This document shows positions 1,305 through 40,095 of a DNA stretch of 64,000 nt, in pieces. The position numbers and the translations under genes are program-made. Source of the DNA: Alphaproteobacteria bacterium (GTDB taxonomy: Bacteria; Pseudomonadota; Alphaproteobacteria; Puniceispirillales; Puniceispirillaceae). The stretch is from positions 1 to 64,000 of the forward strand of contig JAKMFL010000010.1 of NCBI GenBank assembly GCA_022425485.1, in the 5' to 3' direction. The notes below the pieces were generated by a model. The model was not told where the DNA came from. It saw only the letters and a program-made list of their open reading frames with translations, and ran no database searches. How positions within the stretch are numbered: the first letter of the stretch is position 1; each line of letters begins with the position of its first letter.

Positions 1305-1434
1305 AAAAAAAATTAAGGCCGTCACAAACTTGGGGGAGGAACAGTGTGACGGCCTTGATTTAAAAAAAAGCTTTGGGGAAAACTTTGTTTTGGTGTGAGG
1401 GGTGTTGGCGCCCGGGCACCTACCGTCCCCCACA
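1305..1434 (-). ncRNA. Candidate small RNA or structured 3'UTR: 5' hairpin, linker, intrinsic terminator with anti-SD loop
   Basis: Minus strand: TGTGGGGG/CCCCTCACA stem enclosing GGTGC-CCGG-GCGCC, then AAGGCCGTCACA-(CTGTTCCTCCCCCAAGTT)-TGTGACGGCCTT-AATTTTTTTT. G-U pairs on minus become A-C mismatches on plus. Confidence 0.5.
1315..1356 (-). terminator. Intrinsic terminator hairpin (12-bp perfect stem, U-run on minus strand)
   Basis: AAGGCCGTCACA (1315-1326) and TGTGACGGCCTT (1345-1356); A-run at 1305-1312 gives the minus-strand U-run. Confidence 0.7.
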
Positions 1435-1508
1435 ATTTTAATTTAGTCTGCTACCCTGCTTCTAAATAGTGCTATAAATAACGCCCCGTGATGCAAAAAA
1501 CGCATCAC

Positions 1509-32871: not shown

Positions 32872-33885
32872 ATGGGTTGTCTAAGCCAAATTTTAAACAG
32901 AGATGACACAGAAACAGCAGGCGCAAATATTTTGCCTGATGTAGTGCTTGCGCCAATGTCCGGCATAACAGACCGCGCCTTTCGCACGGCCGTGCGTGCC
33001 TCTGGTGGCGGGTTAGTTGTGTCCGAAATGGTGGCAAGTCATGCAATGCTGACAGATGTGCGTGCCGAGATGCAGAAACTGCAATTTAACGCCGCAGCGG
33101 AAGCCCCTGTCGCTATCCAAATTGCTGGGTGGGACCCGTTAATGATGGCAGAAGCCGCAAAGATGGCTGAGCAAATGGGGGCCTGCTTGATTGATATTAA
33201 TATGGGGTGCCCGGCAAAGAAGGTAACTGGACGGGCTTCTGGCTCTGCTTTGATGAAAGAACCTGTTCTTGCGGGTGAAATTTGCGCTGCAGTAGTAGAT
33301 GCGGTTAGCTTACCTGTAAGTCTGAAGACGCGTCTAGGCTGGGATGATCAGCATCGAAACGCACCTGAAATCGCTTATATTGCTGAGGAAAGTGGTGTTT
33401 CTTTGATAACGATTCATGGCCGTACCCGCACCCAAATGTATAAGGGTAGTGCGAATTGGAATGAAATCGCAAATGTTGTTCAGGCCGTTTCCATACCTGT
33501 GCTTGCAAATGGTGATATTGTTAGCCCTGAAGATGCGAAAAGCGCCTTAACAGCCTCGAAAGCGCAAGGCGTGATGGTTGGTAGGGGCGCACAAGGCCAG
33601 CCTTGGTTGTTAGCGCAAATTGCTGATCATTTGGCTGGCCGTGATATACGAAGCACCCCAGATATGGCGTTTCGGTATCGCCAAATATGTCAGCATCTAG
33701 ATATGGTATTAACCGATTATGGTATGCGGGGCGTGCGTTTAGCCCGCAAGCACCTTGCAGCTTATTGTGATTATCTTCCGCAATCTCAAGATTTGCGCCT
33801 TATTGCAACACAATCCGATAGCCCTGAGCCTGTCTTTGCTGCGCTGGCGGAATATTTCAAAACAGATGCTTGCTATGCAGCCTAA
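32872..33885 (+). CDS. dusB: tRNA-dihydrouridine synthase B
   Basis: [38 protein letters not shown]. Confidence 0.95.
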
Positions 33886-35026
33886 ATTATCGCCTCTTGC
33901 ATCTCCTGATAGCTCGCCCCTTGCTGAGGTAATGGATGTGCTACCCTTTCCAGTAGTTTTGCTTGATGAAGAAGATAGTTTTGTCTGGCTAAATCATGCT
34001 GGCGAGCATTTTTTCAAAAGTAGCCTATCTATTTTGTCTGGCACTCGTCTAGACAGGCTTATTCCTCAGGATAGTCAAATTTTCTCGCTTATTCGGCGGG
34101 CCCGCCAGTCTGGCAGTTCGGTTGAAGATAAAGCGATAACTTTTGTTGGGCCACGTATTGGGCTAAAGGGCGCAAGTATCCAGCTCGTGCCATTTCATAT
34201 GGCTGGCTTTGAGAGGCCACTTATTTTGATGACCTTGCAGGAACGCACGGGCGCAGAGCAGCTTGCCACGCAGCAAAATTTCAAAGGTGCAGCCTTATCT
34301 ATGTCCCGGATGACGTCTTTACTGGCCCATGAGATTAAAAACCCGCTAGCGGGCATTAAAGGGGCGGCACAATTGCTGGAAATGGAGTTACCAGAAGCCC
34401 AACATGAACTCAGCAATATGATTGTAAGCGAGACCGATAGGATTACATCGCTTTTACGGCGGATAGAAAACCTATCTTCAGATGCACCGGTAAGGTTTGA
34501 GACGGTAAATATCCACGAAATTCTCGATCATTGCCTGAAGATCACTTCTGCTTCTTTTGGCCGGCATCTAGATATTAAACGCTCTTATGATCCGTCCCTG
34601 CCGGATATTCAAGCAGACAGGGAGATGCTGGTGCAATGCTTTATCAATCTATTCAAAAACGCTTCTGAAGCTACTGCAGAGGGGGATAGCCTATCTATTC
34701 ATACCAGCTATTCTCTAACCCGTTATGTCACTACAGAGACCAGCCGCAAGCTTATCCATCTCCCCTTGCAAATTGCTATCACAGATAGCGGGAAGGGCGT
34801 GTCAGAAGAGTTGCAAGCCCATGTTTTTGAGCCCTTTGTATCCAATAAATCAGGGGGATCTGGTCTTGGGCTGGCTATGGTCGCAAGTGTCATTGCCGAT
34901 CATGGCGGGGCAATTGCTATGCAGTCCTCAGCACAAGGTTCTTGTTTTACGTTAAATCTACCTATTACCCAATCTTATACAGATAATGCGGTTGCAAATC
35001 AGACATCTGATGGGGAAGTTTCATGA
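33866..35026 (+). CDS. ntrB: Two-component sensor histidine kinase NtrB
   Basis: PAS region, H-box [22 protein letters not shown]-box [10 protein letters not shown]; true start near 33866/33875. Confidence 0.92.
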
Positions 35027-36459
35027 AAACGCGCACCTCTCAAATTATCGTAGCAGATGATGATAAAACGGTTCGCACAGTGATTGTGCAAGCCTTGTCC
35101 CGCCAAGGTTATCAAGTTGGCGCGGCAACTACCATAGCTGGATTATGGGATATTACGACCTCTGGGCGCGGGGATGTTTTGATAACTGATGTTGGCTTTC
35201 CAGATGGGGATGCGCTGGAATTATTGCCGCGATTACAAGAAAAACGCCCAGATCTTACCATTATTGTTATGAGTGCGCGGGCTAATTTGCTGACGGCGAT
35301 TAAAACCCAGCAAAGCGGCGTGTTTGACTATCTTCCGAAACCGTTTGAGCTGAAACAGTTATTGGATGTTATTGCACGGGCTGTAACCGCAGATCCCCCT
35401 GCTAGCAGGAATGAAAAACCAGCTGTTAGCTTGCCAAAACAATTGCCTATTTCTTTGCTTGGAAAATCCCCTGCAATGCAGATGAGCTTTAAGCTGTTAA
35501 CCCGTTTATCTGGCCAGCATATGCCCGTATTAATAAAGGCGGATATGGGGTCAGGCAAACAAACTATTGCCAAAACTTTGCATGAAATGGGGCCGCAATC
35601 TGGCGAAAGCTTTGAAGCTCTTAATCTCTCCCAATTGGAAGAAAGCCGCCATGAAGATGCCCTTTTCGGCCTTTCTGGCTTGTTAACGCGGCGCAGCTCT
35701 GGAATGGTGTTTATCAACTATATTGAACGGCTCTCTGCTCAAGCACAGATGCAGCTTGCTCGCTTTGTTGAAAATGCCGCCCCGTCTAATATTCCGATGC
35801 CAAAACATGCGGTGCGGGTGGTTGCTGGTACAGCCGTTAATTTGCAAGTGCTTGTTGAGCAGGGATTATTTCGCGAAGATCTTTTCTTTGAGCTGTCTGT
35901 CGCTGTGCTGAACGTGCCGCCTTTGCGCGATAGAGCTGAAGACATACCGCAAATTGCCCATTTGCTTTGTAGCCGCTTTTCAGAAGAGCTAAAGGCCGAA
36001 AAAACGCTAGAAGAGGAGGCCGTTGCCGCTTTGCAAGCCTATGACTGGCCGGGAAATATCAGAGAGTTGGAGCTGATTTTGAAAAGGCTGTGTTTGACCG
36101 GACAATATGCACGGCTAAGCGCAGCTATGGTGGCGGAAGAAATCGGTCGCACGGCAAATATTGTTGAACAGGCCCTGCCTGTGAAAGAGGCAAATTTATC
36201 CGATAGTTTTAGCCAGCATATTGAACGCTATTTTGCTGCTGCAGGGGATGCCAGTCCGGTACCGGGATTGCATTCCCGCATCTTAGCAGAAATTGAAAAG
36301 CCGCTTATTATGGAAACACTCTATCACACAGCAGGCAATCAGATTAAAGCCGCACATATCCTAGGCTTAAACCGAAATACCTTGCGTAAAAAAATCAAAG
36401 AGTTGAATATTCCAAGCAAACGCGATGTTTATCGCAAACGCGGGCAAGAAGGGCGGTAA
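35023..36459 (+). CDS. ntrC: NtrC-like response regulator with degenerate AAA+ domain
   Basis: Receiver (VADDD, TDVGFPDGDAL, PKPF), AAA+ remnant, Fis-type HTH; position between ntrB and ntrY. Confidence 0.88.
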   Translation: MKTRTSQIIVADDDKTVRTVIVQALSRQGYQVGAATTIAGLWDITTSGRGDVLITDVGFPDGDALELLPRLQEKRPDLTIIVMSARANLLTAIKTQQSGVFDYLPKPFELKQLLDVIARAVTADPPASRNEKPAVSLPKQLPISLLGKSPAMQMSFKLLTRLSGQHMPVLIKADMGSGKQTIAKTLHEMGPQSGESFEALNLSQLEESRHEDALFGLSGLLTRRSSGMVFINYIERLSAQAQMQLARFVENAAPSNIPMPKHAVRVVAGTAVNLQVLVEQGLFREDLFFELSVAVLNVPPLRDRAEDIPQIAHLLCSRFSEELKAEKTLEEEAVAALQAYDWPGNIRELELILKRLCLTGQYARLSAAMVAEEIGRTANIVEQALPVKEANLSDSFSQHIERYFAAAGDASPVPGLHSRILAEIEKPLIMETLYHTAGNQIKAAHILGLNRNTLRKKIKELNIPSKRDVYRKRGQEGR

Positions 36460-36466
36460 ACCAGTT

Positions 36467-38722
36467 ATGGCAGACGCCAAGATAATAGCGCAGACAAACC
36501 AGACAAAAAAGCTGGCAAGCATTCGCAAGAAGCTTTTCCAGCGCTTAAGCCGTGACAATGTTGGTTATGTGCTTATCGTTTTGACCTTTGTTCTGGGCTT
36601 TACGGTGTTTCTATCCCTCAGCACTGTTAGCGATATAAGCACACAATCCAATTTTTTATCGGCGGCAATTTTTCTAGCTATTATGTTGTTGCTCGTCCTT
36701 GCCTTTTTCGTGGGCAGGCAATTATTACGGTTATGGCAAGAACGTAAACGACGCCTAGCGGGTGCGCAGCTGCATTTGCGTCTTGTGATGCTATTTGGCC
36801 TTATCACAGCTATTCCATCTATTCTGGTAGCGGTATTTGCAGTCTCTTTAATTGATTATTCCCTGCGCGGTTGGTTTGCTGAACGTATTTCAACAGCTGT
36901 TAACGAATCTGTTGAGGTTGCTAGTGCCTATTTCGAAGAGCATTCACGCTCGGTTCGGGGGCAAATTTTAACGATGGCGAATGACATCAATCGCGAAGCC
37001 CCGCGGCTGGTGAATAATCAGAAATTATTGAATGAATATCTTTCGAACCAAACTGCTTTGCGAAACCTTTCTGAAAGCGTAATTGTCGATGGAACAGGCC
37101 GGATTAAAGCAAAGTCACAATTTGCCTTTGCTATCAGCTTTTCAAAAATAGATGGCGCTTTGTTGGAGAAGGCTCGTGATGGGGATGTTATCATTATCAC
37201 CCCAAAAGATAACAACAAGATACAAGCTATTGTAAAGTTAGATAATTTTTTAGATGCATACCTTCTAGCGGGCCGGTTTGTTGATGCAAATGTCTTGTCT
37301 GCGCTTGACCGAACGCAATTGGCGGTAAACGAGTATCAGTCGCTTGGATTGCGTCAATTTGATCTTCAAATTTCCTTTGCAGTGATGTTTTTTGTCGTGG
37401 CTTTACTGTTGGTTTTATCTGCGCTTTGGATTGGACTGACCTTGGCCAACTCGATAGTTGAGCCGCTGGTTAGCGTTATTGGCGTCGCAGAGCAAGTCCG
37501 GTCTGGCAATCTTAAAGAACGGGTGCCAGAAATTGATAATATGGATGAGATTGCGCGTCTTGGAACGAGTTTTAACGGCATGCTTGACGAGGTATCGAAC
37601 AGCCGAGAGCAATTGGTGGAGGCCAATAAACAGCTAGATGCACGGCGCGAATTTACCGAAGCTGTTCTAGGGGGGGTAACCTCTGGGGTTATTGGTCTGG
37701 ATAAGAGGGGGGTTGTTACCTTACCCAATCAGGCCGCTTGCACCCTGCTTGATGCCGATCTTTCGAGCCTTATTGGTAAAAAGCTCGTAGATATACAGCC
37801 AGAGTTTAAGCCTGTTTTTGACCAGCTTTCAGCGCAGCGTCGTCAACAGTTGGAACAGCAAATCATTATTCGGGGACGCAAGCGTGCGCTCACCCTTCGC
37901 GTCCGCATAGTCTCAGAGCGTGTCGAAGGGCGCTTGGTTGGCTATGTGCTGACCTTTGATGATATCACCGATTTCCTAGCCGCTCAGCGAAAGGCAGCTT
38001 GGGCAGATGTTGCGCGGCGAATTGCGCATGAAATTAAGAACCCTTTAACCCCAATAGCGCTGGCCACTGACCGATTAATGAAAAAATATCGCCCTGAAAA
38101 GCCAGAAGATGCAGAAAAATTTGACGATTATGTCACCATTATTAGCCGGCAGGTTGGCGATATAGGCCGGATGGTAGAGGAGTTTTCAAAATTTGCCCGG
38201 ATGCCAGCGCCCGTCATGAAAAAGACAGATTTATGCCGTTTAGTGCGCGAACAGGAAACGTTACTTCAGACCTATTCTAATCTGGAAATTATTTTCGATT
38301 TTCCAGAAGAGCCTGCCGCTATTTGGGTCATGGCTGATACAGGGTTGATACGCCAGATGTTAACAAATTTGATGAAGAATGCCATTGAAAATATGCAAGA
38401 AACACAAACCTCTACAGATGTATCTTCCGATAGTGATAAGCGTTTGCGTATAGAAATGAGCCTGTTGCTGGATGGTGACATTACCCAGCTTACACTCCGT
38501 GATTTTGGGAGTGGTTTTGCAGGCGAAGATATGGATAGGTATTTAGAGCCCTACATCACTACACGCAGCAAAGGGACCGGGCTTGGACTTGCGATTGCCC
38601 AGAAGATTATTTCTGACCATGACGGGCAGATAAATTTGTCTAATCATCCAGAGCAGGGGGCGATTGTCACGCTAACCATCCCCAATCTTAGAGACGATAC
38701 CGCGCTAGAGGCAAAGGCATGA
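36467..38722 (+). CDS. ntrY: Sensor histidine kinase NtrY
   Basis: Multi-TM N-term, HAMP, PAS, H-box [21 protein letters not shown]. Confidence 0.93.
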   Translation: MADAKIIAQTNQTKKLASIRKKLFQRLSRDNVGYVLIVLTFVLGFTVFLSLSTVSDISTQSNFLSAAIFLAIMLLLVLAFFVGRQLLRLWQERKRRLAGAQLHLRLVMLFGLITAIPSILVAVFAVSLIDYSLRGWFAERISTAVNESVEVASAYFEEHSRSVRGQILTMANDINREAPRLVNNQKLLNEYLSNQTALRNLSESVIVDGTGRIKAKSQFAFAISFSKIDGALLEKARDGDVIIITPKDNNKIQAIVKLDNFLDAYLLAGRFVDANVLSALDRTQLAVNEYQSLGLRQFDLQISFAVMFFVVALLLVLSALWIGLTLANSIVEPLVSVIGVAEQVRSGNLKERVPEIDNMDEIARLGTSFNGMLDEVSNSREQLVEANKQLDARREFTEAVLGGVTSGVIGLDKRGVVTLPNQAACTLLDADLSSLIGKKLVDIQPEFKPVFDQLSAQRRQQLEQQIIIRGRKRALTLRVRIVSERVEGRLVGYVLTFDDITDFLAAQRKAAWADVARRIAHEIKNPLTPIALATDRLMKKYRPEKPEDAEKFDDYVTIISRQVGDIGRMVEEFSKFARMPAPVMKKTDLCRLVREQETLLQTYSNLEIIFDFPEEPAAIWVMADTGLIRQMLTNLMKNAIENMQETQTSTDVSSDSDKRLRIEMSLLLDGDITQLTLRDFGSGFAGEDMDRYLEPYITTRSKGTGLGLAIAQKIISDHDGQINLSNHPEQGAIVTLTIPNLRDDTALEAKA

Positions 38723-40095
38723 ATGAAGAAATTCTCGTCGTTGATGATGAACCTGATATTCGCTCTCTTATCAGTCTGACTTTAGAGGATGAGGGGTTTT
38801 TGACTGTTCAGGCTGCAAATGCTGCGGAGGCACGTGCGGTCATTACCTCACGACCACCCTCTTGTATTATCCTTGATATTTGGATGCGTGATTCAGATAT
38901 GGATGGGCTAGAGGTGTTAAGCTGGTGTCAAAATCTATATCCAGAAGTGCCAATTTTGATGATTTCCGGACATGGAAATGTTGAAACCGCTGTTCAGGCT
39001 ATTCAGAAAGGCGCGCATGATTTTATCGAAAAGCCCTTTAAGGCTGAAAGGCTGCTATTGACTGTGCGCCGCGCCTTGCAGCAAAGCCGTCTAGCGCGTG
39101 AAAATGCAGAATTACGCGAAAAAACGGATGCGCCTGAAAAGGTGGAACTTATCGGTCAATCTGCGCAGGTGAGGCAGTTGCGGGCAACAATTGAAAAGGT
39201 TGCGCCTACTTCTAGCCGAATATTGATAACCGGGCCTACCGGGTCTGGTAAAGAAGTGGTGGCCCGCCTTATTCATGCGCATTCAGAACGCAAGGAGGGG
39301 CCCTTTATTGTAGCCCATTGTGCGCGAATTGGCGCCGAAAATGCAGATACCGAACTTTTTGGCTCAGAAATGCTGGCTACTGGTCGGCGCATTGTTGGTC
39401 TATTTGAGCAAGCGCATCGCGGAACATTATATTTTGATGAGCTGTGCGATTTACCTTTAGACACGCAAAGCCGGCTTGTCCGTGCGGTGGCTGAGCAGAC
39501 TTTCCGCAGGGTTGGCGGTACAGATCAGGTGACAACAGATGTGCGGATTATTTCAGCTTCTTCTGAAGATCTGGTCGGCGCAATCGAGGCAGGGGAGTTA
39601 AAAGAAGACCTATATTACCGGCTTGGCGTGATTTCGATGTCCGTTCCGGGGCTAGCGATGCGGCGTGAGGATATTAGCTTGCTCGCCCAATATTTTGTCG
39701 AAGATAGCGCACGCCGGCTTGGCAGGCCGCCAGTAAAGCTAGGGGATGATTTGCTGAATGCAATGCGTTCTTATGACTGGCCGGGCTCTGTGCGGCAATT
39801 ACGCAATGTTATAGAAACAATATTAATCTTGAATGAAAAGCCAGAGCAGGGGGTTGTAACCCTTGATGCGTTGCCAGCAGAATTGCTGTCTTCACCTGTC
39901 GAAGGGGCTAATCAGATTCTCCAGCAAAGCCTGTCGCTACCCTTGCGTGAAGCGCGAGAGTTATTTGAGCGTGAATATATGGTCTCACAGCTACAGAAAT
40001 TTGAAGGCAATATTTCACAAATGGCTAAATTTATTGGTATGGAGCGTTCTGCCTTGCACCGTAAATTAAAGGCGCTAAAGGTAGAAACAAGCTAA
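38719..40095 (+). CDS. ntrX: Response regulator NtrX
   Basis: Receiver + AAA+ (GPTGSGKEVVARLIH, LYFDELCDL) + Fis HTH; overlaps ntrY by 4 bp. Confidence 0.93.
   Translation: MNEEILVVDDEPDIRSLISLTLEDEGFLTVQAANAAEARAVITSRPPSCIILDIWMRDSDMDGLEVLSWCQNLYPEVPILMISGHGNVETAVQAIQKGAHDFIEKPFKAERLLLTVRRALQQSRLARENAELREKTDAPEKVELIGQSAQVRQLRATIEKVAPTSSRILITGPTGSGKEVVARLIHAHSERKEGPFIVAHCARIGAENADTELFGSEMLATGRRIVGLFEQAHRGTLYFDELCDLPLDTQSRLVRAVAEQTFRRVGGTDQVTTDVRIISASSEDLVGAIEAGELKEDLYYRLGVISMSVPGLAMRREDISLLAQYFVEDSARRLGRPPVKLGDDLLNAMRSYDWPGSVRQLRNVIETILILNEKPEQGVVTLDALPAELLSSPVEGANQILQQSLSLPLREARELFEREYMVSQLQKFEGNISQMAKFIGMERSALHRKLKALKVETS

Follow-up and report, generated by a model that had tools for sequence, protein, structure and literature searches.

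Does the DNA between positions 1305 and 1434 of the 64,000-nt stretch analysed here (the window) only provide a strong terminator, or does it encode a small regulatory RNA (sRNA) with its own control and its own task? An earlier note, made by reading the letters of the sequence, had proposed a novel minus-strand sRNA whose terminator loop could mask Shine-Dalgarno (SD) sequences. Our data favour, with a probability that we put at about two in three, an independent trans-acting sRNA that would be activated by a LysR-type regulator under nitrogen limitation and would silence transporter mRNAs through its anti-SD loop.

Structure, strand and conservation of the RNA

The features of the locus are as follows:

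1305 to 1434, minus strand: sRNA gene, made up of the 5' hairpin H1, a linker/H2 with a C-rich loop and an intrinsic terminator with an anti-SD loop
1394 to 1434, minus strand: 5' hairpin H1, 8-bp outer and 7-bp inner stem, CCGG loop
1362 to 1386, minus strand: linker or weak hairpin H2, C-rich loop UUCCCCAAAG
1305 to 1356, minus strand: intrinsic terminator, 12-bp stem, 18-nt loop, U8 tail
1332 to 1342, minus strand: anti-SD core GUUCCUCCCCC within the terminator loop
1440 to 1445, minus strand: possible -10 element TAAATT, 6 nt before the start of H1
1464 to 1474, minus strand: second, degenerate box TAGCACTATTT with a conserved TAGCA half-site
1488 to 1508, no strand given: palindrome GTGATGC-N7-GCATCAC, a putative LysR-type box (TGC-N7-GCA, T-N11-A)

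Read 5' to 3' on the minus strand, H1 extends from UGUGGGGG to CCCCUCACA (1434-1394) and encloses GGUGC-CCGG-GCGCC. The terminator has a stem, AAGGCCGUCACA/UGUGACGGCCUU, of 12 bp without a mismatch (1356-1345/1326-1315) and the loop CUGUUCCUCCCCCAAGUU (1344-1327), and the stem is followed by AA and then by U8 at 1312-1305; these elements were found, on reading and folding, as the earlier note had described them. The minimum free energy of minus-strand 1434-1305 is -47.0 kcal/mol; shuffled sequences average -31.9 (sd 3.7), which gives z -4.12, and none of the 200 shuffles was as low. The plus strand folds too (z -2.9), because inverted repeats must, and lacks a U-tail after its stem. The two G-U pairs of H1 (8/42 and 20/29), which would be A-C on the plus strand and from which the orientation had originally been argued, are confirmed, and in the three-sequence alignment the paired positions contain seven G-U cells and zero A-C cells on the minus strand. 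The minus strand is therefore strongly favoured as the functional RNA. As for the linker, the AAAAC-AAA-GUUUU sequence pointed out before is present, but the mini-stem is not conserved; the conserved part is the C-rich loop UCCC(C)AAA with weak arms, and the same position is occupied by a UUUCCUCC loop in genome G007 and in genus g4.

A DNA search of 61 genomes revealed one clear relative, in G001, with 83% identity over 142 nt (G000 is the window's genome; G001, G002 and G007 belong to the same genus and G065, G020 and G031 to genus g4). The similarity takes in both the promoter region and the RNA itself and weakens past the terminator. A third copy was seen in G002 by reading the DNA downstream of homologues of the neighbouring gene at 1509-1955. 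The alignment of these three orthologues contains 27 pairs with 98.8% of the cells paired. Three pairs, one per helix, carry compensatory changes (GC to AU and UA to GC in H1, UA to CG in the terminator stem), and no slid register of the three sequences shows any. With three close orthologues only, the covariation is modest, its score being reached by 20 of 500 shuffles. The covariance model additionally found a displaced, non-syntenic copy in G007 (E 1e-4) and gave a weak match in G065 (E 0.036); the latter is supported by copies 99% and 87% identical in G020 and G031 and by the fold of the g4 homologue into three hairpins, the second and third of which have UUCCUCC loops. The terminator loop is kept while the stems change: CUGUUCCUCCCC is identical in G001, and G007 has AUUUCCUCCCU in loop 2 and CUCUCCUCCACA in the terminator loop.

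The hairpins are thus conserved in relatives with compensatory changes, and the absence of conservation and covariation on which the earlier note would have given up its proposal did not occur. Syntenic orthologues, a non-syntenic homologue, a promoter-type element of its own and unrelated stems with like loops behind the same box (see below) all speak for the conserved minus-strand RNA with an anti-SD terminator loop that had been proposed, and on this comparative evidence a real sRNA gene at 1305-1434 is highly probable.

The palindromic box and the genes that share it

Upstream of each sRNA copy a TGC-N7-GCA palindrome is kept, which reads TGMTGC-N7-GCATC. The distance from its end to GTGGGG is exactly 56 nt in four genomes of the genus, and this spacing is held even in G007, where the DNA in between is unrelated. 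The position of the T-N11-A box at the sRNA is typical of LysR-type activators. The TAGCA half-site lies two helical turns downstream, with a centre-to-centre spacing of about 22 bp, in a register common to the sRNA, glnK and urtA promoters: 48 cases fall at this one register, and every other offset has five or fewer (the two peaks, at 16 and at 17, are a single register, counted for both orientations of an asymmetric pattern). A T-N11-A palindrome near -65 and, some two turns downstream of it, a second site, the transcription start being placed from H1, is what is expected of a LysR-type target promoter. The candidate -10 element recurs as TA...T in four genomes; a sigma70 scan found no consensus pair at the sRNA promoter, and a simple terminator scan returned nothing, its loop limit of 8 leaving out the 18-nt loop of this terminator. 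Control of the sRNA by the LysR-type box is, as far as sequence can tell, very likely.

The distribution of the box was followed with the strict pattern VTGCAAAAAHYGCAYC in the 61 genomes of the family, with the reversed pattern as a control. About 112 strict sites were found, in 55 of the 61 genomes, vs one site for the control, and the strict box is much rarer in other families of the order. The largest classified group (37 sites) lies between a LysR-type gene and glnK-amtB, followed by genes for an MPGP/GPGP-like phosphatase and GpgS-like (glucosylglycerate-type) proteins (9), circularly permuted ATP-grasp genes (8), urtA (5), CuyA/ACC-deaminase-like genes (3), NMT1-like SBPs (2) and an SBP_bac_5 gene (1). 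The other 47 sites are unclassified; they include the sRNAs, 17 at most, and intragenic sites without an obvious nitrogen link. The ATP-grasp sites stand beside CP_ATPgrasp_1/2 proteins in eight genomes (L191, L205, L215, L222, L225, L227, L244, L251).

The window's genome has three exact sites only: at the sRNA, in the LysR/glnK-amtB intergenic region and before the gpgP/gpgS-like (glucosylglycerate) pair. The second (site at 1568 of G000:C13:1-3600) separates a LysR-type gene from a divergent glnK and a marine-subtype ammonium transporter gene (TIGR03644), an arrangement that, together with the palindrome in between, is conserved across the family. The third (G000:C73:38851) precedes mannosyl/glucosyl-3-phosphoglycerate phosphatase-like and GpgS-like genes, which would place a nitrogen-free compatible solute in the same regulon as the sRNA. 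The box, a putative operator, is common to the sRNA and to the genes of ammonium and urea uptake and of compatible-solute synthesis, and the sRNA is likely to belong to a nitrogen-limitation regulon. Because the box sits in its own divergent promoter, the LysR protein is the predicted binder. A search of genome contigs with this protein gave matches only in two close relatives. The chances seem even that it is the family's main nitrogen-limitation regulator, governing high-affinity nitrogen uptake and nitrogen-free osmolyte synthesis, with anti-SD sRNAs as a standard repressing arm in which the stems are freely replaced and the operator and loop are kept.

Known sRNAs and other readings of the locus

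NfeR1 of S. meliloti, the alpha-r14 RNA, is induced by nitrogen stress and silences mRNAs, including those of transporter SBPs and of ntrB, through redundant anti-SD loops; it is activated by the LysR-type protein LsrB at TGCA-N6-GCAT (-72 to -57) and repressed by NtrC (PMC10746234). The RNA studied here resembles it in its anti-SD loops on sequence-variable stems, its LysR-type box, its probable nitrogen link and its predicted SBP targets, and might be considered a divergent, vertically inherited member of alpha-r14, in which case the LysR protein would be orthologous to LsrB/VtlR. Over its full length the g4 copy L132 matches RF02344 with 30.1 bits, which is the highest score among the homologues and the top sRNA-family match of the locus (L130 reaches 24.1), and the window box TGCAAAAAACGCAT, centred 64 nt upstream of H1, from which the start is placed, agrees in motif and position (TGCA-N6-GCAT near -65) with the published LsrB box (PMC10746234). 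However, all these scores are below the curated 58.8 bits, that of the window RNA being 19.9, and the three identical CCUCCUCCC loops that mark alpha-r14 are absent: the window has UUCCUCCCCC in the terminator loop only, and g4 has two UUCCUCC loops. For these two reasons the sRNA was not assigned to alpha-r14. Unlike in NfeR1, the CCGG loop of H1 has no anti-SD sequence and H2 is merely C-rich. LsrB is reported to be redox-responsive and to lie beside abcR1/2, whereas the LysR gene of the window's genome adjoins glnK-amtB, and the box here is common to glnK-amtB, urtA and gpgP/gpgS-like genes. That the RNA is a vertically inherited member of alpha-r14 seems unlikely to us.

VtlR/LsrB also activates AbcR1 and VrsA (PMC8844928, PMC7486931). 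Like AbcR1/AbcR2, our RNA is predicted to be an LTTR-activated anti-SD sRNA acting on transporter mRNAs, but the LTTR box of AbcR is GCAT-N3-TG-N3-T, and no LTTR gene adjoins the window sRNA. In Rfam no family reached its threshold with the window RNA or its homologues: the window RNA scored 17.4 bits with AbcR (alpha-r15, RF02345; threshold 40) and 14.4 bits with CcsR1 (RF02791; threshold 65.3). A whole-genome scan with RF02345 across the class gave zero matches, controls included, and so is silent on the absence of AbcR. The top window matches, sar, ctRNA_pT181 and Yfr1, were set aside as chance resemblances in terminator shape or base composition, the homologues giving them no support. With the CcsR or CCUCCUCCC-motif 'cuckoo' RNAs the window RNA shares CCUCC-type loops able to mask the SD; CcsR-type RNAs are under a stress sigma factor and often occur in arrays, whereas the window sRNA is single-copy with a LysR-type box. 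NsiR4 of cyanobacteria and NrsZ of Pseudomonas are nitrogen-responsive sRNAs controlled by NtcA or NtrC/RpoN; membership in a nitrogen regulon would be common to them and to our RNA, but the control proposed here is of LysR type, and no Rfam match links them.

The locus could also be a strong intrinsic terminator beside a chance hairpin and play no part in trans. The 3' hairpin has the classical form of a terminator, hairpins are frequent between genes and terminator hairpins occur in the background too, but the conservation of the loop while the stems change, the compensated H1 and the end of the upstream gene before the palindrome all make this improbable, as does the enrichment of anti-SD loops behind the box. 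Of 224 directions leading away from the box, 15 have a terminator-like hairpin with a UCCUCC/CUCCCC-type loop, against 3 of 594 positions drawn at random from these loci (Fisher p 9e-7). When terminator-like hairpins alone are counted, the proportions with anti-SD loops are 15/34 behind the box and 3/67 in the background; the p-values, about 1e-6, are optimistic as the genomes are related. C-rich, mostly UCCUCC-type loops on unrelated stems stand behind the same box in 17 genomes and form about ten distinct sequence clusters (G000/G001/G002; G007; G003; the g4 trio; several types in genus g2; G027), some of them weaker, with AUCCCC loops only or with the terminator 269 nt away. A second candidate in G000, before DUF2721 (L129, looser box), was rejected as it has no anti-SD terminator. 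Beside two box-linked sRNA candidates, short ORFs starting with MTK were seen, one between the first hairpin and the terminator (L250, MTKSALRFLKKQ...) and one after the terminator (L177, MTKLASVFREVYWN...); they may encode related small proteins.

Processing from the 3' end of the mRNA of the 1509-1955 gene is quite improbable. This gene encodes, on the same strand, a 148-aa membrane protein without Pfam/NCBIfam matches that was found in 29 of 61 related genomes; its stop codon is about 75 nt from H1, and it is kept as the neighbour in G000, G001 and G002. However, the conserved two-box element lies between this stop codon and H1, in most relatives the gene is present but the sRNA is not, and the G007 and g4 copies, none of which adjoins a 1509-1955 homologue, have the same box at similar spacing. 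The sRNA is therefore regarded as an independent gene, and of the two origins that the earlier note had left side by side, independent or processed, only the first is upheld. Finally, a functional plus strand, or use of its GGGGGAGGAACAG (1332-1344) as the RBS of a small ORF, can be dismissed in spite of the perfect SD and the fold of that strand, since the only nearby start, a GTG just past the SD, is followed at once by TGA, the U-tail is lacking and the one-sided changes would give A-C pairs.

Predicted targets and a possible mechanism

Targets were searched with one 8-mer pattern, GGGAGGAA followed by ATG within 3-9 nt, which gave four sites in G000 and five in G001. Two of these are kept in both genomes before real genes, one for a branched-chain-type ABC SBP (Peripla_BP_6; site UUUUGGGAGGAACCCGAUG, predicted pairing GUUCCUCCC) and one for a DctP TRAP SBP; the strong RBS of the type UUGGGAGGAA, guessed at the outset, matches a predicted target conserved in the two genomes. 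The targets are most plausibly SBP transporter mRNAs, which as a prediction agrees with the targets of NfeR1 and AbcR, and silencing via anti-SD pairing is a likely mode of action. A 13-nt perfect complement of the loop, UGGGGGAGGAACA, conserved at G000:C73:19388 (L275) and G001:C36:5564 (L276), was set aside, there being no plausible ORF downstream.

In the mechanism that we propose, the LysR-type regulator, whose gene stands divergent to glnK-amtB on a different contig, would act under nitrogen limitation: it would occupy the palindrome, at about -64, together with the half-site, near -40, and activate transcription from a start near 1434; the RNA would end at the U8 terminator. Its exposed anti-SD loop, possibly helped by the C-rich loop of H2, would pair with strong SD sequences and block the translation of selected mRNAs, most plausibly those of transporter SBPs not worth making when nitrogen is short. 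The sRNA would then probably be a repressing arm of a nitrogen-starvation response that is not described in the literature searched, where we found neither nitrogen sRNAs of SAR116 nor a LysR nitrogen regulator.

Bacteria of the SAR116 type, to which the host of this DNA probably belongs, are plentiful in surface ocean waters poor in nitrogen. If our reading is true, a nitrogen regulon emerges for this group in which the operator is defined and there are candidates for the regulator and for the post-transcriptional arm, and the rhizobial circuit of LysR box and anti-SD sRNA (NfeR1, AbcR) reaches far beyond rhizobia, whether through deep descent or because it was recruited repeatedly.

The silencing of ntrB, as effected by NfeR1 in S. 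meliloti, is disfavoured here: in the window's genome ntrB is a poor predicted target, the pairing of its site with the sRNA being weak (rank 25 of 53). The window itself carries an ntrB-ntrC-ntrY-ntrX-like cluster at 33755-40095. The protein in the NtrC position reaches only 345 bits with TIGR01818, whose cut-off of 558.6 several relatives from g2, g4 and g9 exceed, and by this measure NtrC looks strongly diverged in the window's genus.
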